Positions 186 through 14,599 of a DNA stretch of 64,000 nucleotides are shown here, piece after piece (positions within the stretch are counted from its first letter, which is position 1; every line of letters starts with the position of its first letter). Source of the DNA: Nitrosomonadales bacterium. Lineage in GTDB: Bacteria; Pseudomonadota; Gammaproteobacteria; Burkholderiales; Gallionellaceae. The position numbers and the translations under genes are program-made. The notes beneath the pieces are model-generated. The model did no database searches. It saw only the letters and a program-made list of their open reading frames with translations, and was not told where the DNA came from. Location of the stretch: NCBI GenBank assembly GCA_016235045.1, contig JACRME010000012.1, positions 1-64,000 on the forward strand. Reading direction: 5' to 3'.

Positions 186-959
186 ATGAAAGCAGTGATT
201 CTTGCAGGCGGTTTGGGTACGCGGATCAGCGAAGAGACATCGGTCCGTCCGAAGCCTATGGTCGAGATCGGCGGCAAGCCGATCCTGTGGCACATCATGA
301 AGACCTATTCGGCTCACGGCATCCATGACTTCGTGATCTGCTGCGGCTATAAGGGCTATGTCATCAAGGAATATTTCGCCAACTACTTTCTGCACATGTC
401 GGACGTGACGTTCGACATGGAGCACAACAAGATGGAAGTGCACCAGCGCTATGCCGAGCCGTGGAAAGTGACGCTGGTGGACACCGGCGAAGAAACCATG
501 ACGGGCGGCCGCTTGAAGCGCGTGGCGAATTACGTCAAGAATGAGGAAGCCTTCTGCTTTACCTATGGCGACGGCGTAAGCGATGTCAACATCACCGACT
601 TGATCGCCTTTCACAAGGCGCACAAGGTCAAAGCCACATTGACGGCAACGATACCGCCGGGGCGCTTCGGTGCCCTGGACATGAGCGGCAACAAGGTCAA
701 CAGTTTCCGCGAGAAGCCGAAGGGCGACGGCGCCATGATCAACGGCGGCTTCTTCGTGTTGTCGCCGCAAGTCATCGACTACATCGCCGACGACAAAACG
801 ATCTGGGAACGTGAACCGCTCGAGCGTCTGGCCGAAGAGGGCGATCTTGCGGCATTCCACCACAACGGTTTCTGGCAGCCGATGGACACGCTGCGCGACA
901 AGATACATCTCGAAGAATTGTGGCAATCGGGCAAGGCGCCGTGGAAGGTGTGGAAGTGA
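186..959 (+). CDS. rfbF: Glucose-1-phosphate cytidylyltransferase
   Basis: Makes CDP-glucose from glucose-1-phosphate and CTP, the entry step to CDP-3,6-dideoxyhexoses. The 257-residue protein opens with the nucleotidyltransferase signature: GGLGTR at residues 8-13, and [10 protein letters not shown] follows at 21-30. The length is that of RfbF/DdhA/AscA. The ATG at 186 is chosen because it starts directly at the family N-terminus MKAVILAGG; an upstream in-frame ATG at 48 lies inside the end of ugd. The stop overlaps the GTG of rfbG (GTGA at 956-959), so the two are translationally coupled. Confidence 0.97.
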
Positions 960-2032
960 ATCCGTCTTTCTGGAAAGGCAGGCGCGTCCTGATGACCGGG
1001 CATACCGGCTTCAAGGGGAGCTGGCTGTCTTTGTGGCTGCAGTCAATGGGTGCGAAAGTGGCGGGATACGCGCTTGCCCCGCCGACGAACCCCAGCTTGT
1101 TCGAGGTCGCCGAGGTTGGCAAGGGCATGACCAGTATCATCGGCGATATCCGCGATCTGGAACATCTGCGCCGCGTGTTCGCCGAACACCAGCCGGAGGT
1201 CGTCATCCACATGGCGGCACAACCGCTGGTGCGCTATTCCTATGTCGAGCCGGTCGAGACTTATTCCACCAACGTGATGGGTACGGTGAACCTGCTTGAA
1301 GCAGTGCGCAGCACGTCCAGTGTGAAGGCCGTGGTCAACGTGACCAGCGACAAATGTTATGAGAACCGCGAATGGGTTTGGGGCTACCGCGAGAACGAAG
1401 CGATGGGCGGCTACGATCCATACAGCAACAGCAAAGGTTGTGCGGAACTGGTGACCTCGGCCTATCGCAACTCCTATTTCCATCCGGAAAAATACCAGAT
1501 GCATGGCGTCGCCATCGCTTCCGGCCGGGCCGGCAACGTCATCGGCGGCGGCGACTGGGCGGGTGACCGGCTAATTCCCGACATCGTGCGCGCCATCATG
1601 CAGGGCAAGCCGGTGAATATTCGCAGCCCACATGCGATCCGCCCCTGGCAGCATGTACTGGAGCCGTTGTCCGGCTATCTGGTGCTGGCACAGAAGCTCT
1701 ACGAGGAAGGAACGGGTTACGCTGAAGGCTGGAACTTCGGCCCGAACGACGAAGATGCCAAGCCGGTGCAGTGGATCGTCGAGAGGCTGACCCAGGACTG
1801 GGGCGAGGGCGCCAGTTGGGTGCTGGATGGCGGCGATCACCCGCACGAGGCGCATTACCTGAAGCTGGATTGCTCCAAGGCCAGGATGCGCCTGGATTGG
1901 CATCCCAGATGGCATCTTGAAGATGCATTGGGCGCGATCATCGAATGGCACCGCGCGCATCGCGACGGGAAAGACATGCGCGAACTGACGCTGCGTCAGA
2001 TCGGCAAATACAACGATAGTATTCGAAAATAA
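956..2032 (+). CDS. rfbG: CDP-glucose 4,6-dehydratase
   Basis: An extended SDR that converts CDP-glucose to CDP-4-keto-6-deoxyglucose. It is 358 residues from the GTG at 956, which overlaps the rfbF stop and gives the expected N-terminus ([18 protein letters not shown]). An upstream in-frame ATG at 920 lies inside rfbF and is less likely. Visible features are the NAD-binding GHTGFKG (residues 15-21) and the catalytic YSNSK (Y156, K160). It is second in the rfbFGH set and supplies the substrate for RfbH. Confidence 0.97.
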
Positions 2033-2049
2033 TGAGTGGGGATTCTTAA

Positions 2050-3363
2050 GTGGACAAGGCAGAAATCAAACAACAGATATTGAATCTGGTCGAGCAATAC
2101 AGCGCGCTGCAATATGCTGCAATACCCTTCCAGGCAGGCAGCAGCGTCGTGCCCCCGTCCGGCAAGGTACTGGGTGCCTCAGAACTGAAGAACATGGTCG
2201 AGGCATCGCTGGACGGATGGCTCACCACCGGGCGTTTCAACGAGGCATTCGAAAAACGTTTTGCCGAATATGTCGGCGTGCCCTATGCGCTGACCACCAC
2301 CTCAGGCTCCTCTGCTAACCTGCTGGCATTCACAGCGCTAACTTCGCACAAGCTCGGCGCGCGCGCCTTGAAGCCGGGCGATGAAGTCATCACCGTTGCT
2401 GCGGGCTTCCCCACCACCGTGAACCCGATGCTGCAGAATGGCATGGTGCCGGTGTTCGTGGATGTGGACATCCCCACTTACAACATCGACCCGAACAAGA
2501 TCGCGGCGGCGATCACCCCCAAGACCAAAGCCATCATGGTGGCGCACACGCTGGGCAATCCCTTCGATCTGGACGCCGTCATGGCGCTGGCGAAGAAACA
2601 CGATCTCTGGGTAATCGAAGACTGCTGCGATGCACTCGGCTCTCGCTACAAAGGCCAGCATGTTGGCACCTTCGGCCACATCGCCACTTGCAGCTTTTAT
2701 CCCGCCCACCACATCACCATGGGCGAAGGCGGTATGATCTTCACCAAAGACCGCGACCTGCGCACCATCATCGAATCCTTCCGCGACTGGGGCCGCGATT
2801 GCTACTGCGGCCCGGGCTGCGACAATACCTGCGGCAAGCGCTTCGGCCAGAAACTGGGTAAGCTGCCCGAAGGTTATGACCACAAGTACACCTACTCACA
2901 CCTGGGCTACAACCTCAAGATCACCGACATGCAGGCGGCCTGCGCACTGGCGCAGATGGATCGCCTGCCGGTGTTCGTCGAAGCACGCAAACGCAACTTC
3001 GCCTTCCTCAAAGAGCGTTTGAAATCCTGCGAAGAATTCCTGATCCTGCCGGAAGCCACTCCAGGCAGCGAACCGTCTTGGTTCGGTTTCCCGATCACCT
3101 TGCGCGAAGCGGCGAACGTGAACCGCGTAGAACTGTTGAAATACCTGGACCAGTACAAGATCGGCACCCGCCTGCTGTTCGCGGGCAACCTCACACGCCA
3201 GCCGTATTTCGAGGGGCGCACTTATCGCATCAACGGCGAACTGACCAATACCGACAAGATCATGAACGACACCTTGTGGATCGGCGTGTATCCGGGGCTG
3301 AGCGAAGAGATGCTGGGTTTTGTGGTCGGGAAGATCGAAACGTTCTTCGGTGTAAACTTTTAA
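2050..3363 (+). CDS. rfbH: CDP-4-keto-6-deoxy-D-glucose 3-dehydratase (E1)
   Basis: PMP- and [2Fe-2S]-dependent dehydratase that removes the C3 hydroxyl and, together with a reductase (E3), gives CDP-4-keto-3,6-dideoxyglucose. It has 437 residues with a GTG start. The PLP lysine of aminotransferases is replaced by histidine (H220 in [13 protein letters not shown]), the hallmark of this subfamily. The cysteines C193, C251, C253 and C261 show the published C-X57-C-X-C-X7-C iron-sulfur pattern. No gene for the E3 reductase (rfbI/ddhD/ascD) is visible in this window, so it must lie elsewhere or be replaced by a housekeeping electron donor. Confidence 0.97.
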
Positions 3364-3368
3364 TTTTG

Positions 3369-4283
3369 ATGAATCGGGAAGCTGTGATTCACCCAACAGA
3401 CAAGCTTAAGGTTGCCATTATCGGTAGCGGGAATATCGGTACCGATCTTTTGATCAAGGTGCTGCGCTCCCCCTATCTTGAATGTGGTGCCTTCATCGGC
3501 CGGAACCTCTCATCTTCGGGCATGATGAAAGCACTGTCGTTGGGTGTACCCGTATCAGCTAACGGAATCGATTACATCGTGAAGAATCCGGATTGCTGCG
3601 ATCTGGTGTTCGATGCGACATCGGCCAAGAGTCACTTTGAGCATGCGCCCATCCTGAAAAATCTGAACAAGCGGGTCATTGATTTGACTCCGGCGAAGAT
3701 CGGCCTGATGAGCGTACCCAGCGTCAATCTTGAGGACAGTTTGACCGAATTCAACGTCAATATGGTGACCTGTGGCGGCCAGGCATCTATCCCGGTTGCT
3801 TACGCTATTGGGCAAACACAGACTGACGTCGAATATATCGAAGTAGTTTCCAGCATTGCTTCGCGGAGCGCAGGCCCGGCGACCAGGCAGAATCTGGATG
3901 AATACATCAAGACGACCGAGGATGGAATCAAGGAATTTTCGGGCGCAACCCGGACCAAAGCCATACTTAACTTGAATCCCGCAGAGCCCTGTGTCGATAT
4001 GCAGACTACCATCTTCGCCAAAGTGAAACACCCGGATATTGAAAAGTTGACCGGGGTTCTGGCCCAACTGGTAGAGAAGATTCGCAAATATGTCCCCGGG
4101 TATGAAATCATTCTTGGGCCGATTGTTGAGAATGGCCGCATCGTGGTGATGGCCAGAGTGCGGGGGTTGGGTGATTACTTGCCTGCCTATGCGGGCAATC
4201 TGGATATCATCAATTGTGCCGCGATTGCCATGGCAGAAGAATATGCGCGCGTCTCGCTCAACCAAACGTCGAGGGAGCATTGA
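3369..4283 (+). CDS. mhpF: Acetaldehyde dehydrogenase (acetylating), MhpF/DmpF family
   Basis: Interconverts acetyl-CoA and acetaldehyde with NAD(H). The 304-residue protein has a Rossmann IIGSGNIGTD (17-26) and the catalytic cysteine C135 in NMVTCGGQASIP, both typical of DmpF/MhpF. It normally works as a complex with the aldolase encoded next door, channelling acetaldehyde between active sites. In meta-cleavage catabolism these two genes accompany hydratases and dioxygenases; here none are present and the neighbours are CDP-sugar genes. I infer the biosynthetic direction, acetyl-CoA to acetaldehyde. Start ATG 3369 lies 5 bases after the rfbH stop; the stop overlaps the next start (TGATG). 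Confidence 0.93.
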   Translation: MNREAVIHPTDKLKVAIIGSGNIGTDLLIKVLRSPYLECGAFIGRNLSSSGMMKALSLGVPVSANGIDYIVKNPDCCDLVFDATSAKSHFEHAPILKNLNKRVIDLTPAKIGLMSVPSVNLEDSLTEFNVNMVTCGGQASIPVAYAIGQTQTDVEYIEVVSSIASRSAGPATRQNLDEYIKTTEDGIKEFSGATRTKAILNLNPAEPCVDMQTTIFAKVKHPDIEKLTGVLAQLVEKIRKYVPGYEIILGPIVENGRIVVMARVRGLGDYLPAYAGNLDIINCAAIAMAEEYARVSLNQTSREH

Positions 4284-5311
4284 TGGCGAATAACCGTGAA
4301 ATCCTGATCAGCGATCCGACACTGCGTGACGGCAATCACGCAGTGGGACACCAACTGAGCGCGGAACATATTGCAGCCTACTGCAAAGCTGCCGATGCAG
4401 CCGGAGTGACTATCGTTGAAGTCGGGCATGGAAACGGGCTTGGCGCGTCTTCGCTCCAATTGGGGGAATCTAAAACACCCGATCACATCGCCCTGACGAC
4501 TGCAAGGCAGAATCTGGTCAAATCAAAACTGGGCATCCATGTCATTCCCGGTTTTGCCACGATAGAAAGAGACCTGAAGCCGGCGCTTGAACTGGGTGTT
4601 GATGTAGTCAGGGTGGCATCGCATTGCAGCGAAGCGGACATCTGCGAACGCCATATCAGCTATTCCCGCAGCCAGGGTGTGGGCGTCTGGGGCTGCCTGA
4701 TGATGTCCCATATGATCTCTCCCGCATTGCTGCTGGAGCAAGCCAGGAAGATGGAGTCGTATGGTGCGGAAGGGGTCGTTTTCATGGACTCCTCAGGACA
4801 TTTTCTGCCTGATGATGTGCGGCAGCGAGTGGAGACACTGGTGAACGGCCTTTCGATCGCCGTCGGGTTCCATGCGCACAACAACCTGGGTATGGCCATT
4901 GGCAATTCAGTGGCTGCCGCAGATGCGGGTGCGACTTTGCTGGACGGTTGCGCGAGGGGGTTCGGAGCGGGTGCGGGGAATGCCCAACTGGAAGTGCTTA
5001 TCGCCGTATTGGAACGCTTGGGTTACGCCACGGGGGTGGATCTGTACAAGATTCTGGATGCCGCCGATGTGGCGGAAGAACTCCTGATAAAAGAAATTCC
5101 GTCAATTAAGTCAGTCAGCGTAGTAAGCGGAATGGCCGGTGTGTTTTCCGGTTTCATGAAACCGGTCTCGCGCATCGCCAAGGAATTCAATGTCGATCCG
5201 CGCGACGTATTTTTTGAGCTGGGGCGTCGCAAGATCGTCGCAGGGCAGGAAGACATAATTTTAGAGGTCGCGAAAGAGTTGGCCCAGCGCGCCAGGAAAG
5301 GAAACGAATGA
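4283..5311 (+). CDS. mhpE: 4-hydroxy-2-oxovalerate aldolase, MhpE/DmpG family
   Basis: Divalent-metal aldolase of the HMGL-like family that joins or splits pyruvate and an aldehyde (4-hydroxy-2-oxovalerate from pyruvate plus acetaldehyde). It has 342 residues. The N-terminal DPTLRDGNHA carries the metal ligand D16 and the probable catalytic base H19; the FHAHNN motif supplies H197 and H199. It is cotranscribed with its usual dehydrogenase partner. In this sugar cluster the aldol-forming direction would supply a 4-hydroxy-2-oxo acid to the thiamine-diphosphate enzyme at 7222; that link is inference. The family and partner assignment is strong; the physiological aldehyde is not proven. Confidence 0.93.
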   Translation: MANNREILISDPTLRDGNHAVGHQLSAEHIAAYCKAADAAGVTIVEVGHGNGLGASSLQLGESKTPDHIALTTARQNLVKSKLGIHVIPGFATIERDLKPALELGVDVVRVASHCSEADICERHISYSRSQGVGVWGCLMMSHMISPALLLEQARKMESYGAEGVVFMDSSGHFLPDDVRQRVETLVNGLSIAVGFHAHNNLGMAIGNSVAAADAGATLLDGCARGFGAGAGNAQLEVLIAVLERLGYATGVDLYKILDAADVAEELLIKEIPSIKSVSVVSGMAGVFSGFMKPVSRIAKEFNVDPRDVFFELGRRKIVAGQEDIILEVAKELAQRARKGNE

Positions 5312-6369
5312 AACCCGAATGCGTAGAAAGAACGCGCCACGATTGCCTGCGAATCCTGGATGGCCGCGATAAGGAGCTTGATCCGTTGCGTCAATCCGAA
5401 CTGGTTGTCATCGGGGGAACAGGTTTCGTCGGCACATGGATCGCCGAAATGGTTGCAGCGCTCAACGACGGATACCAATTCGGCATCAAGCTGTCGTTGA
5501 TCTCGCGCAGTACCGATCAATTTGCCAATCGCCTGCCGCATTTGGCCAATCGTCCGGATATCGCGCTGATTAAATCCGATGTACGGCAACTCGGACAATT
5601 TCCAAGCAATGCGGACTGGGTCATTCATGCGGCTGCGAACCCGGACGTGCGTACGCATGCATCCAACCCTCTGGATACGGCATCGGTCATCGTTGACGGC
5701 ACCATGTCGGTGATGCGGACTGCGGAGCGTCTGGGTCGGCTCAAGAAACTCCTCTATCTGAGTTCCGGTCTGGTGTGCGGTACTCAACCGGCAACGGCTA
5801 GTGGTGTGGCGGAGAATGCGCAGGGTGCTCCTGCGCCGGATGCCAGCTTCATCTATGCCAATGCAAAGCGCTTCGCCGAGACGCTTTGTTCTGCCGCACG
5901 CGCACAGTCCCGCATCCCGGTGCTGGTGGCCCGCCCGTTTTCGTTTGTCGGGCCATATCAATCGCTGGATACGCCGTGGGCGCAAACCACCTTCCTGTCC
6001 GATGCCCTGCGCGGCCACCATATCCGCGTTCTGGGAGATGGTCAGGTGGTTCGCAGCTATCTGTACGGAAGCGATGCGGCGTATTGGTTCTTGCGGATAT
6101 TGACTGCCGGGCAGAGCGGCGATGTGGTCAACGTGGGCAGTCCGGCAGGTACTACCTTGCAGGATCTGGCACAGGAGGTCGCCAGGAACTTCGAACCGTC
6201 CCCGGAAATAATGTTTAACACTGCGCCGAGAAACGCGGGCAGGTCGGCACAATTGCTTCCGGATACAACACATGCTCAAAACGATTATGGATTATCCGTG
6301 TTCACGCCGCTGGAAGAAGCCATCAACTTAACGGCACAATGGCATCGCATGCAAAATACCCGGAAATGA
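5308..6369 (+). CDS. NAD-dependent epimerase/dehydratase family protein (extended SDR)
   Basis: 353-residue extended SDR. After about 30 extra N-terminal residues the Rossmann motif GGTGFVG appears at 36-42, and the catalytic Y183/K187 pair lies in FIYANAK. The middle resembles nucleotide-sugar 4,6-dehydratases and 4-epimerases. The ATG overlaps the aldolase stop (ATGA). Placed between the two aldolase genes of the putative branched-sugar pathway, it could reduce the new side-chain ketone or epimerise the CDP-sugar. The sequence alone does not decide between reductase and epimerase. Confidence 0.85.
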   Translation: MKPECVERTRHDCLRILDGRDKELDPLRQSELVVIGGTGFVGTWIAEMVAALNDGYQFGIKLSLISRSTDQFANRLPHLANRPDIALIKSDVRQLGQFPSNADWVIHAAANPDVRTHASNPLDTASVIVDGTMSVMRTAERLGRLKKLLYLSSGLVCGTQPATASGVAENAQGAPAPDASFIYANAKRFAETLCSAARAQSRIPVLVARPFSFVGPYQSLDTPWAQTTFLSDALRGHHIRVLGDGQVVRSYLYGSDAAYWFLRILTAGQSGDVVNVGSPAGTTLQDLAQEVARNFEPSPEIMFNTAPRNAGRSAQLLPDTTHAQNDYGLSVFTPLEEAINLTAQWHRMQNTRK

Positions 6370-6394
6370 GCAAGCCAATGAAGGCGACACCCAA

Positions 6395-7186
6395 ATGACA
6401 ATCCACGAAAATTTACTGAAGTCGAAGCTGAAAAATGACCAGCCCGTTGTCGGTACATGGTCGATTATCTCTTCGCCTATCGTGGTTGAAATACTGGCAT
6501 TGTCCGGTTTCGATTTTTTGATTCTGGACATGGAACATGGGATTTACGATCAGACCGCTCTGGATGCCTGCATCCGGGCTTGCGAGGCAGCAGGTTGTGC
6601 ACCAATTGTGCGGGTGCCAGGCATCAACCCCTCTGCCGTGCAGTGGGCGCTCGATATGGGGGCTCACGGCATTGTTGTGCCGCAGGTAGGAAACGCAGCA
6701 TCCGCCACAATAGCGGTAGAGATGACTAAGTTTGCACCAAATGGTACGCGTGGCTACAACCCGTTTACCCGGGTCGCGGGTTACGCTGCACCCGGCAGCA
6801 ACCAGGTTGGCAAACTGCGAAATGATTTCGGCCTCACCTCGGTTATTGTCGAGAATCAAACAGCGCTGGACGAATTAGATGCGATCCTGTCAATCGTAGA
6901 TTTGGATATGGTTTATGTCGGCGTCTACGATTTATCGATCGCGCTTGGCTATGCGGGCGACACTAAACACCCAGCGCTTTGCCGGGTGCTGGATCAGGCG
7001 GTAGCTAGAATCAGGTCGGCCGGAAAAATCGCCGGGCTAATGGTGCGAAGCAAGGAAGATGTGACAAGAGCGGCCAAATTGGGTGCGCGGTTTCTTGTGT
7101 ATTCCGTAGACACCCTGATTTTGCGTGAGGCAGCGAAGAGAGCCGTTGCGGAATTCGAGCGGGGCGTTTCAGAAGCACAATTATAG
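6395..7186 (+). CDS. HpcH/HpaI-family aldolase
   Basis: Class II pyruvate aldolase of the HpaI/GarL/RhmA type, 263 residues. The active-site residues can be placed by comparison with HpaI: H48 in LDMEHG, R73 in IVRVPG, the metal ligands E153 (VENQTALDE) and D179 (VGVYDLSIALG). The family condenses pyruvate with aldehydes to 4-hydroxy-2-oxo acids or does the reverse. It gives the cluster a second pyruvate aldolase, next to the MhpE-type one. It may extend the side-chain precursor or use a different aldehyde; the substrate is unknown. Confidence 0.9.
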   Translation: MTIHENLLKSKLKNDQPVVGTWSIISSPIVVEILALSGFDFLILDMEHGIYDQTALDACIRACEAAGCAPIVRVPGINPSAVQWALDMGAHGIVVPQVGNAASATIAVEMTKFAPNGTRGYNPFTRVAGYAAPGSNQVGKLRNDFGLTSVIVENQTALDELDAILSIVDLDMVYVGVYDLSIALGYAGDTKHPALCRVLDQAVARIRSAGKIAGLMVRSKEDVTRAAKLGARFLVYSVDTLILREAAKRAVAEFERGVSEAQL

Positions 7187-7221
7187 AGTCGGTTTGTGCA
7201 TCAAGAAAAAAGGGGAAAGAC

Positions 7222-9015
7222 ATGAAGATTCGGACCGCTGACTATATAGCCCGGCGCCTGCGGGAGTGGGGCGTAGATAAGGTTTTTATGTTGTCGGGGG
7301 GCGGCATGATGCATCTGGTGGACTCGGTAGGTCGCGCAGAGGGCATGCATGCAATATGCAACCATCACGAGCAGTGCTCAGCCATCGCAGCCGATGCGCA
7401 GGCACGCTTTACCGGCCGGATTGGAGTTTGTTATGCAACTAGCGGGCCTGGTGCCACTAACATCCTGACAGGATTGGTAGGTGCCTGGCAGGATAGCAGC
7501 CCTGTATTGTTCCTGACCGGACAAAGCAAATCGACGCAAACGATTCAGGGCGCGGGCATAGCAGGACTGCGACAGTTTGGCACCTTTGAAGTCGATATCG
7601 TCCCGATTGTAAAGCCTGTGACGAAATATGCAGTGATGGTCACCGATCCCAATACCATCCGCTACCATCTGGAAAAAGCTCACTATCTGGCTACCACCGG
7701 TCGGCCTGGACCTGTGCTCCTGGACTTGCCCCTCGATGTGCAGGGAGCACTTATCGAACCCGAAAGTCTGGAAGGGTACATGCCCGAAGCTGCCGCAAAT
7801 CAGCTTGAAGAGAAAGATTTGATTAAAGTGGTAGATATTTTGCGTAATGCCAAGCGGCCATTAGTGTTGTCCGGGGTTGGCATTCGAGCAGCAGGCGCGG
7901 TGGATGTGTTCCGTCGCTTGGTTGATCGCATGAATATTCCGGTTGTGACATCGCAATTGGGCAAGGACGCGCTTTTCTATGACCACCCTTTGTTTGTAGG
8001 CCATTCCGGCCCCAAGGGTGATCGCGCAGGCAACTTTGCAGTGCAGACCGCGGACGTGATATTAAGCCTTGGCTGTAGCTTGCATTCCCAGACAACTGGG
8101 TGGGAAAACAGCCTGTTTGCGCCCGAAGCAGTAAAAATCCAGGTTGATATTGATGAAGCAGTTCTGGCGCGCGAACAACTCAATGTCGCGGTAAAAATCA
8201 AATCCGACGTGAGCGAGTTCCTGTTGGGCCTCGAACCGATGGTTGGGAAAGGGTTTGCCAGCGACGCATGGCGCAATGTTTGTGTTTCGTGGAAAAGTCG
8301 CTATGCCGTAAATCGGGAGCCGCATGATCGAACCGCGGAGGCCGTAAATTATTATGACTTTGCCGAAGAGTTGAGTTGTGCGTTAAAAGGTGACGAGTGC
8401 GTCGTCACCGATGCAGGCTCGGCATTCTATGCAATGGGCCAAGGCTTCCGGGCAAAGTTGGGGCAGCGCTTTATTTCATCCGGTTCATTGGGTGCGATGG
8501 GTTTTGCGCTTCCGGCCTCGAACGGCGTTGCGACTGCAAATGGCAATGCAACCATATGCGTTACGGGTGATGGTTCACTGATGACCAATATCCACGACCT
8601 GGCCGTGACCAGTCATTACAAGCTGAACGTTAAATTGTTTGTATTGAACAACGAGGGATACCTCTCGATACGCAATACCCAGCGTGACTTCTTTAATGGA
8701 ATGTTCGTTGGCACTGATGCGGATAGCGGCGTATTTATTCCCGACCTGGAAAGCCAGGCAAAGACGTATCGCGTACCGTTCCTGCGATGTGAGCGTACCT
8801 CCGATTTGAAAGAGGTGATTGCGCGGGCCTTGGATATTAGCGGCCCGGTTCTTGTCGAAATCGCTGCCCTCCGCGACCAACGCATGATCCCATCCGTCAT
8901 GTCGGAACGCCTGCCGGACGGTCGCATGCAGTCAAAACCACTCCATGAAATGTATCCCTACTTGGCGCAAAGCGAAGTTGATGCCGAGTTGGATAGAGCA
9001 AGAAAAGCAGTCTGA
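7222..9015 (+). CDS. Thiamine-diphosphate-dependent enzyme, acetolactate synthase/YerE-like
   Basis: 597-residue protein with the full ThDP-enzyme layout: N-terminal pyrimidine-binding domain with the activating glutamate E50 (CNHHEQCSA), central domain, and C-terminal pyrophosphate domain with GDG at 449-451 and NN at 476-477. It is acetolactate-synthase-like, but its neighbours are rfbFGH, as for YerE of yersiniose synthesis, which adds an acetyl unit from pyruvate to C4 of CDP-4-keto-3,6-dideoxyglucose. I infer that this enzyme decarboxylates a 2-oxo acid and carboligates it onto that same CDP-sugar. A housekeeping acetolactate synthase is unlikely because no ilvN or ilvC is nearby. Confidence 0.88.
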   Translation: MKIRTADYIARRLREWGVDKVFMLSGGGMMHLVDSVGRAEGMHAICNHHEQCSAIAADAQARFTGRIGVCYATSGPGATNILTGLVGAWQDSSPVLFLTGQSKSTQTIQGAGIAGLRQFGTFEVDIVPIVKPVTKYAVMVTDPNTIRYHLEKAHYLATTGRPGPVLLDLPLDVQGALIEPESLEGYMPEAAANQLEEKDLIKVVDILRNAKRPLVLSGVGIRAAGAVDVFRRLVDRMNIPVVTSQLGKDALFYDHPLFVGHSGPKGDRAGNFAVQTADVILSLGCSLHSQTTGWENSLFAPEAVKIQVDIDEAVLAREQLNVAVKIKSDVSEFLLGLEPMVGKGFASDAWRNVCVSWKSRYAVNREPHDRTAEAVNYYDFAEELSCALKGDECVVTDAGSAFYAMGQGFRAKLGQRFISSGSLGAMGFALPASNGVATANGNATICVTGDGSLMTNIHDLAVTSHYKLNVKLFVLNNEGYLSIRNTQRDFFNGMFVGTDADSGVFIPDLESQAKTYRVPFLRCERTSDLKEVIARALDISGPVLVEIAALRDQRMIPSVMSERLPDGRMQSKPLHEMYPYLAQSEVDAELDRARKAV

Positions 9016-9018
9016 CTT

Positions 9019-9969
9019 ATGCGTATCGCCATACTAGGAGCCACGAGCCAGATCGCCAGAGACCTGACGCTTTCTCTCGCTTCCGAAGCAAACAAACATT
9101 TGCACCTTTTTGCGCGACGCCCGGACGAAGTGACGAATTGGCTAGTATCTGCCGGACTGACTGGGCGCTATCCGGCAGATGGATTTTCCGAGTTTTCCAA
9201 ACATGAATTCGATGCCGTCATCAATTTCGTTGGGGTAGGAAATCCGGCGCAGGCAGTGGCGATGGGCAACACGATCTTCGAGGTTACCCTGCGCTTCGAC
9301 GAGATGGTACTGGAATATCTGCAGATGCACCCGGCATGCCGCTACCTCTTCCTGAGCAGCGGCGCAGCCTATGGTTCAAGTTTCAGCGAACCGGCGAAAC
9401 GGGATACCCCTGCCGTTGTGGCGATAAACAATCTGGCGCCGCATGAATGGTATGGCGTGGCCAAGCTGCACGCGGAGTGCAGACATCGCGCACATCCCGA
9501 ACTGCACATCATCGATATCCGCGTGTTTAACTACTTCAGCCGCACACAGGATATTTCTGCACGCTTCCTGATTACCGATATGCTGCGCGCCATCCGCGAC
9601 AAGACGGTGTTGAAGACTTCACCCGATTACATCGTGCGCGACTTCCTGCACCCATCGGATTTCTATAAATTGGTCTGCGCGCTGCTTGCCGCACCAGCCG
9701 CCAATGCTGTAGTGGATTGTTACAGCCGCGCACCAGTAGACAAGCCGAATCTGTTGGCAGCCATGAAAAAAGAATTCGGGTTGTGCTTCGAAGTTGCCGA
9801 AGCAACTGTCAGCGTCAATGCAACAGGTAGCAAGCCGCATTATTACTCTCTGAATACACGAGCAGCCGGCTTTGGGTATCAGCCCGCTTTGACATCTTTG
9901 GAGGGAATTGTTAAGGAGGCGTCCTTTGTGTTGGGGGTGGGTTCATCCGGGGTTATTGGTGATGAATAG
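9019..9969 (+). CDS. NAD(P)-dependent SDR, candidate branched-sugar ketoreductase
   Basis: 316-residue extended SDR starting 3 bases after the ThDP gene. The nucleotide-binding motif is the atypical GATSQIA (7-13), lacking the last glycines of GxxGxxG; the catalytic Y145/K149 pair lies in EWYGVAK. By position it corresponds to YerF, the reductase that follows YerE in yersiniose synthesis, so reduction of the newly formed side-chain carbonyl is the simplest role. This is inferred from order and fold, not from a diagnostic motif. The end overlaps the start of gtrA. Confidence 0.8.
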   Translation: MRIAILGATSQIARDLTLSLASEANKHLHLFARRPDEVTNWLVSAGLTGRYPADGFSEFSKHEFDAVINFVGVGNPAQAVAMGNTIFEVTLRFDEMVLEYLQMHPACRYLFLSSGAAYGSSFSEPAKRDTPAVVAINNLAPHEWYGVAKLHAECRHRAHPELHIIDIRVFNYFSRTQDISARFLITDMLRAIRDKTVLKTSPDYIVRDFLHPSDFYKLVCALLAAPAANAVVDCYSRAPVDKPNLLAAMKKEFGLCFEVAEATVSVNATGSKPHYYSLNTRAAGFGYQPALTSLEGIVKEASFVLGVGSSGVIGDE

Positions 9970-10363
9970 CGCTAATACCATGAGCGATTGGCGTAAGCAG
10001 CGCTTGATACAGTTTCTCGGTGTTGGGGTGTTGAATACGCTGGTAGGTTATGGCATTTATGCAGCGCTGGTCTCCATCGATATACCTTATTTGCTTGCCC
10101 TTCTCTCGGCGACAATTGCGGGCGTTATTTTTAACTACTTTAGTTTTGGGCGGATGGTTTTCAAAGCGCGCGGCGGATGGTTCGTGTTTCGAAAGTTCGT
10201 TGCTGCCTATGCAGTTGTTTATGTGATCAATGCCGCACTTCTCAGCATTTTGACTGAGGGCGCATATTTAAATGTCTATCTTGCTCAAGGGGTATGCATT
10301 TTGCCAAGCGTGGCAATGAGTTGGCTGCTGATGAATTATTGGGTCTACAGGATTGGGTTATAA
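9962..10363 (+). CDS. GtrA-family membrane protein
   Basis: 133-residue protein with four predicted membrane segments in the GtrA pattern (QFLGVGVLNTLVGYGIY near the start, PSVAMSWLLMNYWVYR near the end). GtrA proteins are thought to flip or position polyprenyl-phosphate-linked sugars. ATG 9962 is preferred because it overlaps the preceding stop and removes an unlikely arginine/tryptophan-rich stretch given by the upstream ATG at 9908. It is followed 1 base later by a GtrB-like transferase and then a membrane glycosyltransferase, the classic three-part glycosylation module. Confidence 0.88.
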   Translation: MNSANTMSDWRKQRLIQFLGVGVLNTLVGYGIYAALVSIDIPYLLALLSATIAGVIFNYFSFGRMVFKARGGWFVFRKFVAAYAVVYVINAALLSILTEGAYLNVYLAQGVCILPSVAMSWLLMNYWVYRIGL

Positions 10364-10364
10364 C

Positions 10365-11300
10365 ATGAAGAAAAAACTGATTAGCATAGTGACCCCTTGT
10401 CATAACGAAGAAGATAACATCGACGAGTTGTGCCAGCGTATTGCTGCCGTTATGGAATTGCTACCATACAACTATGAACATATTTGTATAGATAACTGCT
10501 CAACAGATTCGACAGTGCCAAAAATCAAGGCGAAAGCGGCAATAGATAAACGGATAAAGCTGATCGTCAATGCGCGAAACTTTGGACACATCAGGTCGCC
10601 GTACTACGGCATATTACAGTCCAGCGGCGATGCCTGCGTGCTGATTGCTTCCGACCTGCAAGATCCTCCCGAGATGATCGCTGAATTCATCAAGAAGTGG
10701 GAGCAGGGATACAAGACCGTGCTGGCGGTTAAGCCTGAAAGCGAGGAATCCTCAATCATGTTTGGGCTGAGGAAAGCCTATTACCGTCTGATAGCGCGGA
10801 TATCGGAAGTTCCATTGGTACAAAATGCGACTGGCGCCGGACTATTTGACCGCACCGTTGTTGATATTCTCCGTGGCATCCAGGATCCTTACCCTTACTT
10901 CAGGGGGCTGTTATGCGAAATCGGATTTCCCATCGCGTTGGTTCCATTTAAACAGCCTAGACGGCAGCGTGGCGTTTCCAAAAACAACTTCTATACGTTG
11001 TATGACACTGCAATGCTTGGAGTTACCAAACATTCCAAAATTCCGTTACGCCTGATGGCAATGAGCGGGTTCCTGCTTGCGTTTCTGAGCCTCCTGGTAG
11101 CATTGTTTTATTTTGTGGCGAAGTTGGTTTACTGGGATTCATTTCAATTGGGCATGGCCCCCATCTTAATTGCCATCTTCTTTTTTGGGGCAATTCAGGC
11201 GTTCTTTATTGGCGTGCTTGGCGAATACATTGGATCGATTTACACCCATACACGCAATATGCCGTTGGTCGTGGAAATGGAACGAGTTAATTTTGACTAG
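10365..11300 (+). CDS. GtrB-like polyprenyl-phosphate glycosyltransferase (GT2)
   Basis: 311 residues: an N-terminal GT-A domain (IVTPCHNEEDNIDEL at the start, donor/metal motif SDLQDPPEMI) and two C-terminal membrane helices (about 225-250 and 265-290), the architecture of GtrB/DPM1 enzymes. These move a sugar from an NDP donor to undecaprenyl phosphate on the cytoplasmic face. The start ATG 10365 directly precedes KKKLISIVTP. It works with the GtrA protein just upstream and probably the multi-spanning protein just downstream. Confidence 0.9.
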   Translation: MKKKLISIVTPCHNEEDNIDELCQRIAAVMELLPYNYEHICIDNCSTDSTVPKIKAKAAIDKRIKLIVNARNFGHIRSPYYGILQSSGDACVLIASDLQDPPEMIAEFIKKWEQGYKTVLAVKPESEESSIMFGLRKAYYRLIARISEVPLVQNATGAGLFDRTVVDILRGIQDPYPYFRGLLCEIGFPIALVPFKQPRRQRGVSKNNFYTLYDTAMLGVTKHSKIPLRLMAMSGFLLAFLSLLVALFYFVAKLVYWDSFQLGMAPILIAIFFFGAIQAFFIGVLGEYIGSIYTHTRNMPLVVEMERVNFD

Positions 11301-11326
11301 CAAGAAGATTCGCTTGCAGGGGTATT

Positions 11327-12949
11327 ATGACTGACACCACTAAGCCTCGGCCTATGCCATTGGCGCAACTTGGCATTACAGAGGTGCGCACAAAACTCAC
11401 TTTAATCTTCCTGCTTACTTCAGTGGGAGCATTTGTCACTTGCCTGGGTTACTACCTCTTCTCGCAAATATTCTACAACCCGTTACACCCTCTGTACGGA
11501 GGCGGTGAAGTATTCTTGTTGCCACGTTCCCATTTGGCGCAGAACGATATGGCGTTTAGTTTATTCAGTCAGTGGGGAGTGCTGGCGGTTGTAGTGCCGT
11601 CACTCGTTGCGATTGCCTATGCGGCATTTTCTATGGCAGTAAACAGACGCATATCCTTTCGAGTGTTTTTGCTGTCCGCCTATATCCTGTGCTTTCTGGT
11701 GGAGCTGCTTTTTCTTTTCATTACAACCCCGGAAGGCTTGGCGCACATCGCCGACCAGACACACTCTATAAACAACGGCATATATCTGGGGCTTCAACAG
11801 GTTACTGACCAGTTAACCGCGCATGGTATTAAAGATGTTCTCAGTCTGGATTCCATGCGGTACCTGTACGGCGAAATGTACGCCAAAATCGTCCCCGGAA
11901 CGCTTCCTTTCGTCGGTGCTACCCATCCCCCGGGTACCTTTGTGCTGACGTATCTTGTATACGGCTTGGGAGTCGCACTCTTTCCTTTTTTGAGCCATGA
12001 CACCGCGTGTGGCGTGGTGGTTGCGCTCATCAACACAAGTGCCATTATTATTTTGGGCCTCATCGCAAAGGAAATGTTTTCGGAGCGGATCGCACGGCTT
12101 AGCTGCGTCATGATGCTTTGCTTGCCCTCAGTTGCTTTGCATTTCATGGCAGTGCTTGATGGCGTGGCCTCGGTATTTATAGGCATTGGAATATTATTCT
12201 TAATCCATGCGTTGAATGCGATTACCGCATCCTCCAAGCGAGCGCATATGTTCTACGGTGCCGGTGCTGGAGTTGCATTGACTTTGGCCGCCCAATTCAC
12301 TTTTGGGCATGCATTTCCGATTCTCGCGGTCTTGACAGCATTTTTGATCTCGAGCGGTGACATCGTTTCCCAAAGAAAAAGGATGGTGCAATTCGCGGCC
12401 ACTTTGTTGATTGCTCCTACCTGCTATTTTCTGTTTGAGTATTTGGTGAGTGCCGGAAAAGTGTTCTATGTGGCGCTGGCCTTGGAAAGAGCCCAAGCGG
12501 TTGCTGCCGGGCTTGAAAGCAGGCCCTATCCGATAAGCCAGGTCGCTAATTTGATTGTAATGTCCGTGATGGGAGGCGTTGTCCTGTTTCCCTCCGCCAT
12601 ACTCTCCCTGGGGAGTGGCCTCACGATGACAAGGAATCTAACAAGAAAACCACCTGCGCGTTTTACGGGGAAAGAACGGATAAGAAACTATTTGTTGTTT
12701 TCTGTTTTTGTGATGGTTCTGCTCCTGCTGTTTCAGAAAACGGTAAGACTTGAAGTGGAAAGAACTTGGCACTGGTTCTTTTTGCCCGTCTGGGCTTTGA
12801 TGGGTTACCTGTTTTACGGGATTCACGTATTTTTCCGACGATTGTTTCCGGCGAAAAAGGGATTCGGCAATTTGCCTGTGCTGTTGTTTTGCCTTGTTCA
12901 ACTTGCGATTACGGTCGCTTTGGCCATGAGCATACAAGATTACTATTGA
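11327..12949 (+). CDS. Multi-spanning membrane glycosyltransferase (GT-C like)
   Basis: 540-residue protein with about 10-12 hydrophobic segments and a large loop after the second one, containing ATHPPGTFVL. This resembles dolichyl-phosphate-mannose transferase-type (GT-C) proteins; no exact family is claimed. It follows gtrA and gtrB in the same direction, so it probably takes the sugar from the polyprenyl-phosphate carrier in the periplasm and attaches it to the polysaccharide. A role as an alternative polymerase cannot be excluded. Confidence 0.75.
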   Translation: MTDTTKPRPMPLAQLGITEVRTKLTLIFLLTSVGAFVTCLGYYLFSQIFYNPLHPLYGGGEVFLLPRSHLAQNDMAFSLFSQWGVLAVVVPSLVAIAYAAFSMAVNRRISFRVFLLSAYILCFLVELLFLFITTPEGLAHIADQTHSINNGIYLGLQQVTDQLTAHGIKDVLSLDSMRYLYGEMYAKIVPGTLPFVGATHPPGTFVLTYLVYGLGVALFPFLSHDTACGVVVALINTSAIIILGLIAKEMFSERIARLSCVMMLCLPSVALHFMAVLDGVASVFIGIGILFLIHALNAITASSKRAHMFYGAGAGVALTLAAQFTFGHAFPILAVLTAFLISSGDIVSQRKRMVQFAATLLIAPTCYFLFEYLVSAGKVFYVALALERAQAVAAGLESRPYPISQVANLIVMSVMGGVVLFPSAILSLGSGLTMTRNLTRKPPARFTGKERIRNYLLFSVFVMVLLLLFQKTVRLEVERTWHWFFLPVWALMGYLFYGIHVFFRRLFPAKKGFGNLPVLLFCLVQLAITVALAMSIQDYY

Positions 12950-13084: not shown

Positions 13085-14599
13085 GTGACTAGCCGCACCA
13101 GCAAAGCGTTCAGGGGAACGGTCGCGAGTCTCATGCAATATGCCATTTTTATCATATTGCAGGTCATTTTAACGCCGCTTATCCTGAAAATTGCCGGGCA
13201 AGAAGTGCTTGGCGCCTACTCGATCATTATGCAAATCGTCGGGTACGGCATCTTGCTAGACCTCGGATTTAGCGTCGCTCTGAGCAGATTTCTCTCACAG
13301 ACTTATGGCTTAAGTGATCAAGGAAGCAGATTCTCTGAAGTCTTCACCATCGGAAGAGTTTTTCTCCTTATTACAAACCTGAGCCTTGCCGCATTAATTG
13401 TTTTGGTGGCACTAAACATTGGGGATTTAATTGTCGCCAGTGAATCCATACTTGATCAAGCCCAACTTGCTCTTTATTTTTTGGCAGCCTGGACAGTCAT
13501 CAGAACACCACTGGCACTATACAACCATGGGTTAATGGCCACCCAGAACATGGCGGCCGCGAATATCATCGCGATTGCCGGAAATATGAGTCGCCTTACT
13601 TTGTCGTTATTGCTGGTGTATACGGGATTCGGTTTGGTCGGACTGATTGCGGCAAATATTCTTTCTGAAGCAGTTTCATTTGCCATGCAAATGAAACACT
13701 TTAGAAAGAAATATCCAAACTATGTGTTCGGATGGAAGGTTACGGACAATAAGCTTTTCAGAGAAATGTTCTCCTTTGGTGTGAAGTATTGGGGGGTAAA
13801 TCTTGCTGGAGTGTTGTTCTTGGGGAGCGACAGCATCATCGTGGGGAACCTTTATAGTGCGAGTGCAGCATCAGTGTTTTATACCACGAAGATACCCGCA
13901 TTCCTGCTCTTTCAATTTATTTTCAGGCTGTCTGATAATGTGGCGCCGGCGACAAACGAACTGGTTGCTCAAGGCAATTTTGTTGCCGTCAGGTCTGCTT
14001 ACTTGAAAATATTGAGGTATTCGCTGTTGCTCGCTATGCCGTTAGCTATTGGAATTATTGGATTCAATGAGACGGTCATTACAGTGTGGGTAGGAGCTGC
14101 GCAATATGCAGGAGATATAATGTCGTTAGCGATCGCAGTATTTGTTTTGACGCAGGTGGTTAATCACATCAATGCAATGATCACGCTGGCTGCGGGGGAT
14201 ATGCGGCGCTGGGCTACAGTTTCAGTCTTGACCAGTCTAATGAGCTTGGCGCTGTCGTATTGGCTGGGGAAAGTGCTTGGGATGCAGTGGGTCATGGTCG
14301 CTATAGCACTCATGGATATCCCCAATGCGATCTTCCTGTTCAAACGTAGCATTGCCGGACTAAAACTCTCCGTAATGCGAATCTGGCAGGAAGCACTTGT
14401 TCCCGTGCTGTGGGTATGTTTGCCGCTTTGTGGATTGGTTGTTTACCTTAAAGCAACGAGTTCAATGCATTCATTGTTAAGTCTAGTTCTTTATATCATG
14501 CTGTTTTCAATGCTCTGGGTTGCCTGTCTCTTGCTAGTGGGACTAAGCAGATCGGAGAAAGAAATATTGAGGAATAAATGCCAAGTCTATCTATCGTAA
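13085..14599 (+). CDS. wzx: Polysaccharide flippase (Wzx-like, MATE/MVF fold)
   Basis: 504-residue integral membrane protein with about 12-14 hydrophobic helices and the N-terminal pattern of polysaccharide biosynthesis proteins (ILTPLILKIAGQEVLGAYS; GYGILLDLGFSVALSRF). Wzx proteins flip undecaprenyl-diphosphate-linked repeat units to the periplasm. It begins with GTG at 13085, right after the ugd remnant, and overlaps the next gene by 22 bases. With the Wzy-like gene at 16445 and Wzz at 27651 it defines a Wzx/Wzy-dependent system. Confidence 0.88.
   Translation: MTSRTSKAFRGTVASLMQYAIFIILQVILTPLILKIAGQEVLGAYSIIMQIVGYGILLDLGFSVALSRFLSQTYGLSDQGSRFSEVFTIGRVFLLITNLSLAALIVLVALNIGDLIVASESILDQAQLALYFLAAWTVIRTPLALYNHGLMATQNMAAANIIAIAGNMSRLTLSLLLVYTGFGLVGLIAANILSEAVSFAMQMKHFRKKYPNYVFGWKVTDNKLFREMFSFGVKYWGVNLAGVLFLGSDSIIVGNLYSASAASVFYTTKIPAFLLFQFIFRLSDNVAPATNELVAQGNFVAVRSAYLKILRYSLLLAMPLAIGIIGFNETVITVWVGAAQYAGDIMSLAIAVFVLTQVVNHINAMITLAAGDMRRWATVSVLTSLMSLALSYWLGKVLGMQWVMVAIALMDIPNAIFLFKRSIAGLKLSVMRIWQEALVPVLWVCLPLCGLVVYLKATSSMHSLLSLVLYIMLFSMLWVACLLLVGLSRSEKEILRNKCQVYLS

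Follow-up and report, generated by a model that had tools for sequence, protein, structure and literature searches.

We analyzed the first 64 kb of contig 27 (JACRME010000012.1) of a 3.15-Mb Nitrosomonadales genome, a stretch of 64,000 nucleotides (the window) whose first base is the first base of the contig, and described a set of nine genes for the synthesis of a putative branched sugar. The product of this gene set is quite probably a CDP-activated 4-C-(1,3-dihydroxybutyl)-3,6-dideoxyhexose, that is, a sugar with the constitution of erwiniose, whose branch would be donated by a hydroxylated 2-oxo acid made by enzymes of the same locus. The core idea of this route, put forward in a preliminary description of the DNA, is not new, such donor use being already in print for erwiniose: ErwE of Pectobacterium reportedly refuses pyruvate and uses 4-hydroxy-2-oxo acids to make this sugar (PMC12247030). 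What is new here is the donor cassette, together with its exchange between lineages of thiamine diphosphate (ThDP) carboligases and a predicted stereo-inversion of the aldolase; none of these points was found in the open-access literature searched, as far as its text was available. The published preference of ErwE is now linked to a donor-making cassette.

In the proposed pathway, glucose-1-phosphate cytidylyltransferase (rfbF, 186-959; TIGR02623, 484 bits with a cut-off of 300), CDP-glucose 4,6-dehydratase (rfbG, about 956-2032; TIGR02622, 524 bits, cut-off 278) and CDP-4-keto-6-deoxyglucose 3-dehydrase (rfbH, 2050-3363; NF011936, 754 bits, cut-off 423) would produce CDP-4-keto-3,6-dideoxyglucose. 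An MhpF-like acetylating acetaldehyde dehydrogenase of a sugar-locus clade (3369-4283; TIGR03215, 386 bits, cut-off 282; nearest PDB entry 7z3s) would convert acetyl-CoA to acetaldehyde and pass it to an MhpE-like 4-hydroxy-2-oxovalerate aldolase (4283-5311; TIGR03217, 386.7 bits, cut-off 286; nearest PDB entry 1nvm, DmpG), which would join it with pyruvate to form 4-hydroxy-2-oxopentanoate, predicted to be the 4R form. A ThDP carboligase (7222-9015), which its nearest PDB entry (8rph), the trees and a Thr at the position of JanthE V121 place on the JanthE side of the YerE-like class, would decarboxylate this acid and add a 3-hydroxybutanoyl unit to C4 of the keto sugar. The new ketone would then be reduced by a short-chain dehydrogenase/reductase (SDR), preferably SDR2, a probable YerF-type reductase (9019-9969; PF01370), or, in loci without SDR2, by the extended SDR named SDR1 (5308-6369; Epimerase, PF01370), and the finished sugar would enter an O-antigen or exopolysaccharide. 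The ninth gene encodes an HpcH/HpaI class II pyruvate aldolase (6395-7186; PF03328; nearest PDB entry 2v5j, HpaI), to which the preliminary description assigned no role; nor did that description specify the reducing SDR. We infer these reactions, their directions and their stereochemistry from the gene identities, conservation, tree relations and residue signatures described below.

The nine genes form an unbroken + strand series from base 186, as originally stated: all frames are open with zero internal stops, the families pass their cut-offs (in Pfam HpcH_HpaI, three TPP_enzyme domains, DmpG_comm, AcetDehyd-dimer and Epimerase), and the set recurs in another genome. The stop/start overlaps claimed for the series exist at three of the eight junctions, namely rfbF/rfbG (4 nt, given a start at GTG 956, the likely one, which overlaps the rfbF stop; a second in-frame GTG lies at 920), mhpF/mhpE (1 nt, TGATG) and mhpE/SDR1 (4 nt, ATGA), while the other junctions are gaps of 3-35 nt. 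The key residues are intact. The ThDP enzyme possesses both the Glu of the HHEQ motif and the GDGS motif. MhpE retains Arg17, Asp18, His21, His200 and His202 of DmpG, which we take to be functional residues, and HpaI has His, Arg, Glu and Asp in alignment with 2v5j at what are presumably its catalytic positions, so that this aldolase looks catalytically intact.

All nine genes were also identified in locus L156 of genome G1010 (loci and genomes are given L and G numbers), where they are arranged as rfbFGH-HpaI-ThDP-SDR2-mhpF-mhpE-SDR1; compared with the order in the window, rfbFGH-[mhpF-mhpE-SDR1]-[HpaI-ThDP-SDR2], the two modules are swapped. Identities to the window proteins are 72% for RfbF, 68% for RfbG, 71% for RfbH, 62% for HpaI, 61% for the ThDP enzyme, 56% for SDR2, 58% for MhpF, 65% for MhpE and 39% for SDR1. 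G1010 is probably a Pectobacterium, as it contains five pectate lyase matches, three of them in a row. The locus starts with wza, wzc, a sugar transferase and a reductase gene in the RfbI position (named by its position; its NCBIfam matches do not reach the cut-off), and the nine genes are followed by four glycosyltransferases, a hexapeptide transferase, manC, manB, rmlD, rmlC, rmlA and a galF-like gene. Erwiniose is a branched sugar with ten carbon atoms, located on a Gal-Man-Rha backbone, and galactose in the side chain is acetylated (PMC8657720); the mannose, rhamnose and acetyltransferase genes of L156 fit the published O-acetylated Gal-Man-Rha-Erw polysaccharide.

The window and L156 thus share the full gene set, the status of L156 as an erwiniose locus resting on the inferred Pectobacterium identity of its genome. 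With the ErwE system of Pectobacterium atrosepticum (PMC12247030), compared here without the ErwE sequence, the proposed pathway has in common the CDP-4-keto-3,6-dideoxyglucose acceptor, a hydroxylated 2-oxo acid as the donor and a destination in a surface polysaccharide. The donor preference of ErwE, the JanthE-side position of the window ThDP enzyme and the matching probable Pectobacterium locus argue for the originally suggested route from acetyl-CoA and pyruvate to transfer by the ThDP enzyme. Sugar-type MhpE at E 1e-120 was found in two of the 171 genomes of the family sample (G1010 and G1318); the stretch from G1318 (L166) contains no rfbFGH or ThDP homologue. A distant DNA search with part of L156 matched only an acetyltransferase stretch.

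The window ThDP enzyme matches JanthE (8rph) with 333 bits, acetolactate synthases with at most 234 bits and 5ahk, which we take to be PpYerE, with 229 bits, and is 33% identical to JanthE and 30% to 5ahk; by comparison, the ThDP enzyme of the yersiniose-type locus L040 scores 591 bits with 5ahk and 252 bits with JanthE. In a 66-row tree, the YerE-like class of 56 rows is split from ten acetohydroxyacid synthase (AHAS) rows with a support of 100, and the window enzyme is located in a 36-row branch with JanthE (support 99), apart from the 20 YerE-side rows (support 84) and the AHAS rows. It therefore falls outside the YerE/PpYerE clade, on the opposite side of the split. This tree and the mhp trees below were built quickly, and several of their branches were flagged as long. 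The position of JanthE V121 is Phe in all 30 AHAS and YerE-side rows and a residue other than Phe in 35 of the 36 rows on the other side, the window enzyme having Thr. A non-Phe residue here fits a larger donor, short of proof, and the window enzyme is a probable relative of ErwE. A plasmid tblastn search gave only acetolactate synthase-like or unnamed matches with identity of 33% or less. JanthE of Janthinobacterium sp. HH01 is also a YerE-like enzyme, and its clade consists of JanthE and four ThDP genes (L070, L082, L083, L154) that all adjoin mhpF-mhpE; however, JanthE differs from the window enzyme in its ThDP lineage and a CDG motif. JanthE accepts 4-hydroxy-2-oxovalerate with benzaldehyde as the acceptor (PMC12188165).

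MhpE homologues at E 1e-50 were identified in 37 of 398 genomes of the order, at 46 listed places, and among these places rfbFGH and sugar ThDP neighbours were found only at the window and in G417 (L070). For the other 44 places, 15 stretches were opened, plus one from G465, and the remaining 29 were judged from the places of ThDP genes, with three candidates scored per genome. In nine of the 16 opened comparison stretches, mhpD or mhpC is a neighbour within the range displayed; rfbFGH is seen in none of the 16. The MhpE proteins of the window and G417 are mutually nearest (56%), whereas other MhpE proteins are at most 45% identical to that of the window. G000 and G417 have one MhpE match each at E 1e-50. 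When 19 genomes were searched with E. coli MhpE, three of the genomes G000, G417, G622 and G728 gave a single match, and the window's genome gave one extra remote match (33%, 49 bits). Within the 64-kb window, E. coli MhpA-D were not the best match of any frame, and a distant DNA search for mhpE in E. coli genomes gave no match. In the class sample, mhpF-mhpE adjoin a sugar ThDP gene in L082 and L083 as well. Trees of 23 rows unite the six sugar-locus MhpE in one clade (100/99) and the six MhpF in one clade (100/100), against 17 comparison rows.

We further scanned 398 genomes of the phylum with a profile built from the six MhpE of sugar loci, which gave six new places at 409-637 bits, the next score being 329. 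Four of them adjoin rfbH (L154, L155, L156 and L157), three of these also a ThDP gene, while no homologues of rfbFGH or of the ThDP gene are seen in the 19 kb of L158 and of L159. In total, ten loci, including the probable Pectobacterium one, have mhpF/mhpE next to rfbH or a sugar ThDP gene. The pair resembles DmpG-DmpF, BphI-BphJ and MhpE-MhpF of aromatic degradation in being an aldolase and a dehydrogenase with the communication domain and the catalytic residues. It differs in that the sugar-locus enzymes are about 45% or less identical to the comparison rows, carry changed residues at two positions described next and would work in the synthetic direction. A catabolic hitchhiker was considered and rejected, since mhpF and mhpE stand apart in the trees and have rfbH or sugar ThDP neighbours in the ten loci.

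BphI makes and uses the 4S form only; its Y290F variant loses stereocontrol, and the L87N/Y290F and L87W/Y290F variants turn to 4R, all R-selective forms in these articles being engineered (PMC3962088, PMC4012138). We placed BphI 87 and 290 at DmpG 88 and 291, a one-residue shift deduced from the Leu pattern. At these positions the window MhpE has His and Phe, not Leu and Tyr. The His/Phe pair is present in nine of the ten sugar-locus MhpE, whereas the 21 comparison rows have Leu/Tyr in 20 cases (including DmpG) and Ile/Tyr in one; a catabolic context is available for 14 of these rows (12 by mhpD/mhpC neighbours, E. coli and DmpG). In three relatives from outside sugar loci, the pair is Phe/Phe, His/Cys and His/Phe. 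The first position is Asn or Trp in engineered BphI and His in sugar MhpE. The sugar-locus MhpE is predicted, with somewhat more hope than doubt, to make 4R 4-hydroxy-2-oxopentanoate, and represents a candidate for natural R-selectivity within the MhpE/BphI family. Erwiniose is 3,6,8-trideoxy-4-C-(1-hydroxyethyl)-D-gulo-octose, and by our own working, partly from this name, its C7 would be R, as expected with a 4R but not with a 4S donor. The stereochemistry of erwiniose formation becomes testable with purified enzymes. MhpE proteins in or near the sugar-type clade with altered residues at 88/291 were also observed at L158:9030-10085, L159:9087-10094 and L166:9255-10253, perhaps for other biosynthetic uses.

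A scan of genome contigs revealed four loci with a relative of the window ThDP gene, among them L007 and L008, in which the order mhpF-mhpE-SDR1-HpaI-ThDP-SDR2 is kept with 75-96% identity. In L154, mhpF (83%), mhpE (83%) and SDR1 (86%) are close to those of the window but the ThDP enzyme is only 32% identical; it belongs to the JanthE clade and is 58% identical to JanthE. In L157, the mhp genes are accompanied by a third ThDP lineage, sister to that of L026. Grouping the ThDP genes of mhp loci into one clade was rejected, with p 0.00016 for a set of six rows fixed by their neighbours before the first tree, and with a far smaller p for a set of nine rows, enlarged afterwards, which has three changes. 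The conservation of mhpF, mhpE and SDR1 in combination with different ThDP genes means that one donor cassette was joined to different ThDP lineages, and this cassette, as judged from the sequences, moves independently of the ThDP lineage. A single origin of the mhp-ThDP pairing is likewise rejected. The record of L008, whose genes are 82-96% identical to those of the window, is titled Candidatus Paracaedibacteraceae; mis-binning of the contig or a recent transfer may be the reason.

By analyzing the 3-kb neighborhoods of 54 ThDP genes, we counted homologues of MhpE, NeuB, PanB, HpaI, Eda, NanA and LeuA as 2-oxo-acid makers. The acetolactate synthase loci L038, L044, L074, L076, L077, L078, L085, L086 and L087 were left out; JanthE, PpYerE and E. 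coli IlvI, as well as the later found L154, L156 and L157, are outside the 54, and both ThDP genes of L065 were counted. On the JanthE/window side, 25 of the 35 ThDP genes have a maker within 3 kb, compared with none of the 19 YerE-side genes (Fisher p 2e-7, without regard to kinship among the rows). The 25 include six genes with MhpE (three also with HpaI), 18 with a NeuB-like synthase and one with a PanB-like protein (L010), and ten genes, L026 among them, have no counted maker. This adjacency supports the view that the donor of many ThDP enzymes on the JanthE/window side is made by a neighbour enzyme, and suggests a sequence rule by which the 2-oxo-acid maker beside the ThDP gene predicts which branched sugar the locus makes. 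Yersiniose loci with YerE and YerF have rfbFGH, a ThDP carboligase and an SDR2-type gene in common with the window; however, the YerE-clade loci have no maker within 3 kb (0 of 13) and their enzymes carry Phe at V121, the window differing in both. YerE uses pyruvate or 2-oxobutyrate (PMC12247030).

It can be speculated, with about an even chance of being right, that these loci constitute a plug-in system, in which a ThDP gene is combined with any donor maker (MhpF-MhpE, NeuB-like, PanB-like or perhaps an aminotransferase), cassettes and ThDP lineages are exchanged, and the mhp type, altered at DmpG Leu88/Tyr291 (positions engineered in BphI), provides a 4R donor for D-gulo erwiniose. Among individual neighbours, a PanB-type ketopantoate hydroxymethyltransferase gene (L010:9117-9977) stands between the SDR1-like and ThDP genes of an rfbFGH locus and suggests yet another 2-oxo acid donor. 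NeuB-like synthases lie within 3 kb of sugar ThDP genes at L027:5710-6816, L028:11683-13185, L009:7975-9420 and 15 others; here the donor may be an ulosonic acid yielding polyhydroxylated long branches. Finally, a class I aminotransferase, not counted as a maker, occurs between rfbH and the ThDP gene at L026:10558-11733 and may supply a 2-oxo acid from an amino acid.

The two SDRs differ in their distribution. Since SDR2 homologues with 72-78% identity are located directly behind the ThDP gene in five yersiniose-type loci, SDR2 is a probable YerF-type reductase of the 4-C-acyl ketone; it has no PDB match at E 0.001. SDR1 is found near mhpF-mhpE in all ten sugar loci, and SDR1-like genes replace SDR2 in four of the 13 YerE-clade loci; SDR1 is a candidate for ketone reduction or another CDP-sugar step. 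Among the 54 ThDP genes only those of the window, L007 and L008 have both SDRs within 3 kb. Both are also present in L155 and L156, and L157 has SDR1 and a 99-aa piece of SDR2 at the contig end.

The presence of both SDRs in these five loci, and of an apparently intact HpaI accompanying the window-type ThDP gene in the window, L007, L008 and L156, is compatible with a longer branch. HpaI would then condense an aldehyde formed from the first aldol product (e.g. 3-hydroxybutanal) with another molecule of pyruvate, a six-carbon or longer acyl unit would be transferred, giving a caryophyllose-like sugar, and the two SDRs would have two jobs. We consider this unlikely, since the probable Pectobacterium locus shares the nine genes and ten-carbon erwiniose leaves room only for a four-carbon acyl unit; in addition, L154 and L070 show no HpaI beside the mhp genes. 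If L156 makes erwiniose, HpaI adds no carbons to the final sugar, and its function in the erwiniose pathway may be to provide the aldol product by a second way or to take part in another step. Caryophyllose itself, also named in the preliminary description, has a six-carbon branch (PMC5706390), which is not obtainable from the donor proposed here. The caryophyllose enzyme MMAR_2332 uses a hydroxylated donor with a preference similar to that of ErwE (PMC12247030); it is thus alike in ThDP branching with such a donor but different in branch length, and the available parts of the caryophyllose gene literature name no aldolase neighbour.

Use of another acyl-CoA, e.g. propionyl-CoA converted via propanal to 4-hydroxy-2-oxohexanoate, is improbable. 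In sugar-locus MhpE, DmpG Phe139 is replaced by Cys, Val, Ile or Gly, possibly making more room for the aldehyde, and ErwE also accepts 4-hydroxy-2-oxohexanoate (PMC12247030); however, the acetaldehyde dehydrogenase model TIGR03215 is clearly passed, and DmpG Leu90 (BphI Leu89, a chain-length position, PMC3962088) remains a bulky Ile or Val. The ordinary yersiniose pathway with pyruvate as the donor and mhpF-mhpE as catabolic bystanders, which would share rfbFGH, the ThDP gene and the SDR2-type gene, is highly improbable given the separate mhp clade, its adjacency to rfbH or sugar ThDP genes in ten loci, the retention of the mhp genes and SDR1 while the ThDP gene changes, the lack of meta-cleavage-like genes in the window and the non-Phe residue at V121. 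The place of the enzyme in the ThDP tree and its residue at V121 led us to reject plain yersiniose.

Several observations weigh against erwiniose-type synthesis as proposed here. G1010 is assigned to Pectobacterium, as a probable identity, on the evidence of its pectate lyases and the gene content of the locus. Two SDRs are present where a single ketone needs reducing, and HpaI is unexplained in a route needing one aldolase. An RfbI-type reductase is the usual partner of RfbH; a search of the 64-kb window with the L156 protein as the query gave none (the rest of the genome was not searched), whereas L156 and L155 carry one near rfbF, that of L155 being a 37% relative. The ThDP enzyme of L033, on the long-donor side, is the sole exception there in carrying Phe at V121, one sugar MhpE (L157) has His/Val, and seven of the 21 comparison MhpE rows are without a shown catabolic context. 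An enlarged tree places the non-sugar L158 and L159 inside the sugar MhpE clade and L166 at its base, thus sugar-type MhpE also occurs outside sugar loci, and the ten sugar rows as a strictly monophyletic group are weakly rejected (p 0.032). Finally, L155 consists of rfbFGH-mhpF-mhpE-SDR1-SDR2 and has no ThDP gene in the 13.6 kb up to the contig end.

Downstream of the nine genes in the window are a GtrA-like protein, a gene at 10353 that was labelled as glycosyltransferase family 2 (GT2)-like by reading its sequence, a Wzx-like polysaccharide flippase (13085-14599, + strand; PF13440/PF01943), glycosyltransferases and further sugar nucleotide genes; therefore, the nine-gene set opens a surface polysaccharide locus. 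Among other sugar loci, L065 possesses two different ThDP sugar genes (6530-8491 and 10701-12551) with one or more glycosyltransferase-like genes between them, as read from the sequence. Proteins of about 265-271 aa sharing the motif KAEFEAEGTR are encoded near ThDP sugar genes at L055:1922-2734, L081:5272-6075 and L065:5671-6465; they show a weak likeness to HpcH/HpaI, tested for the L055 protein only.

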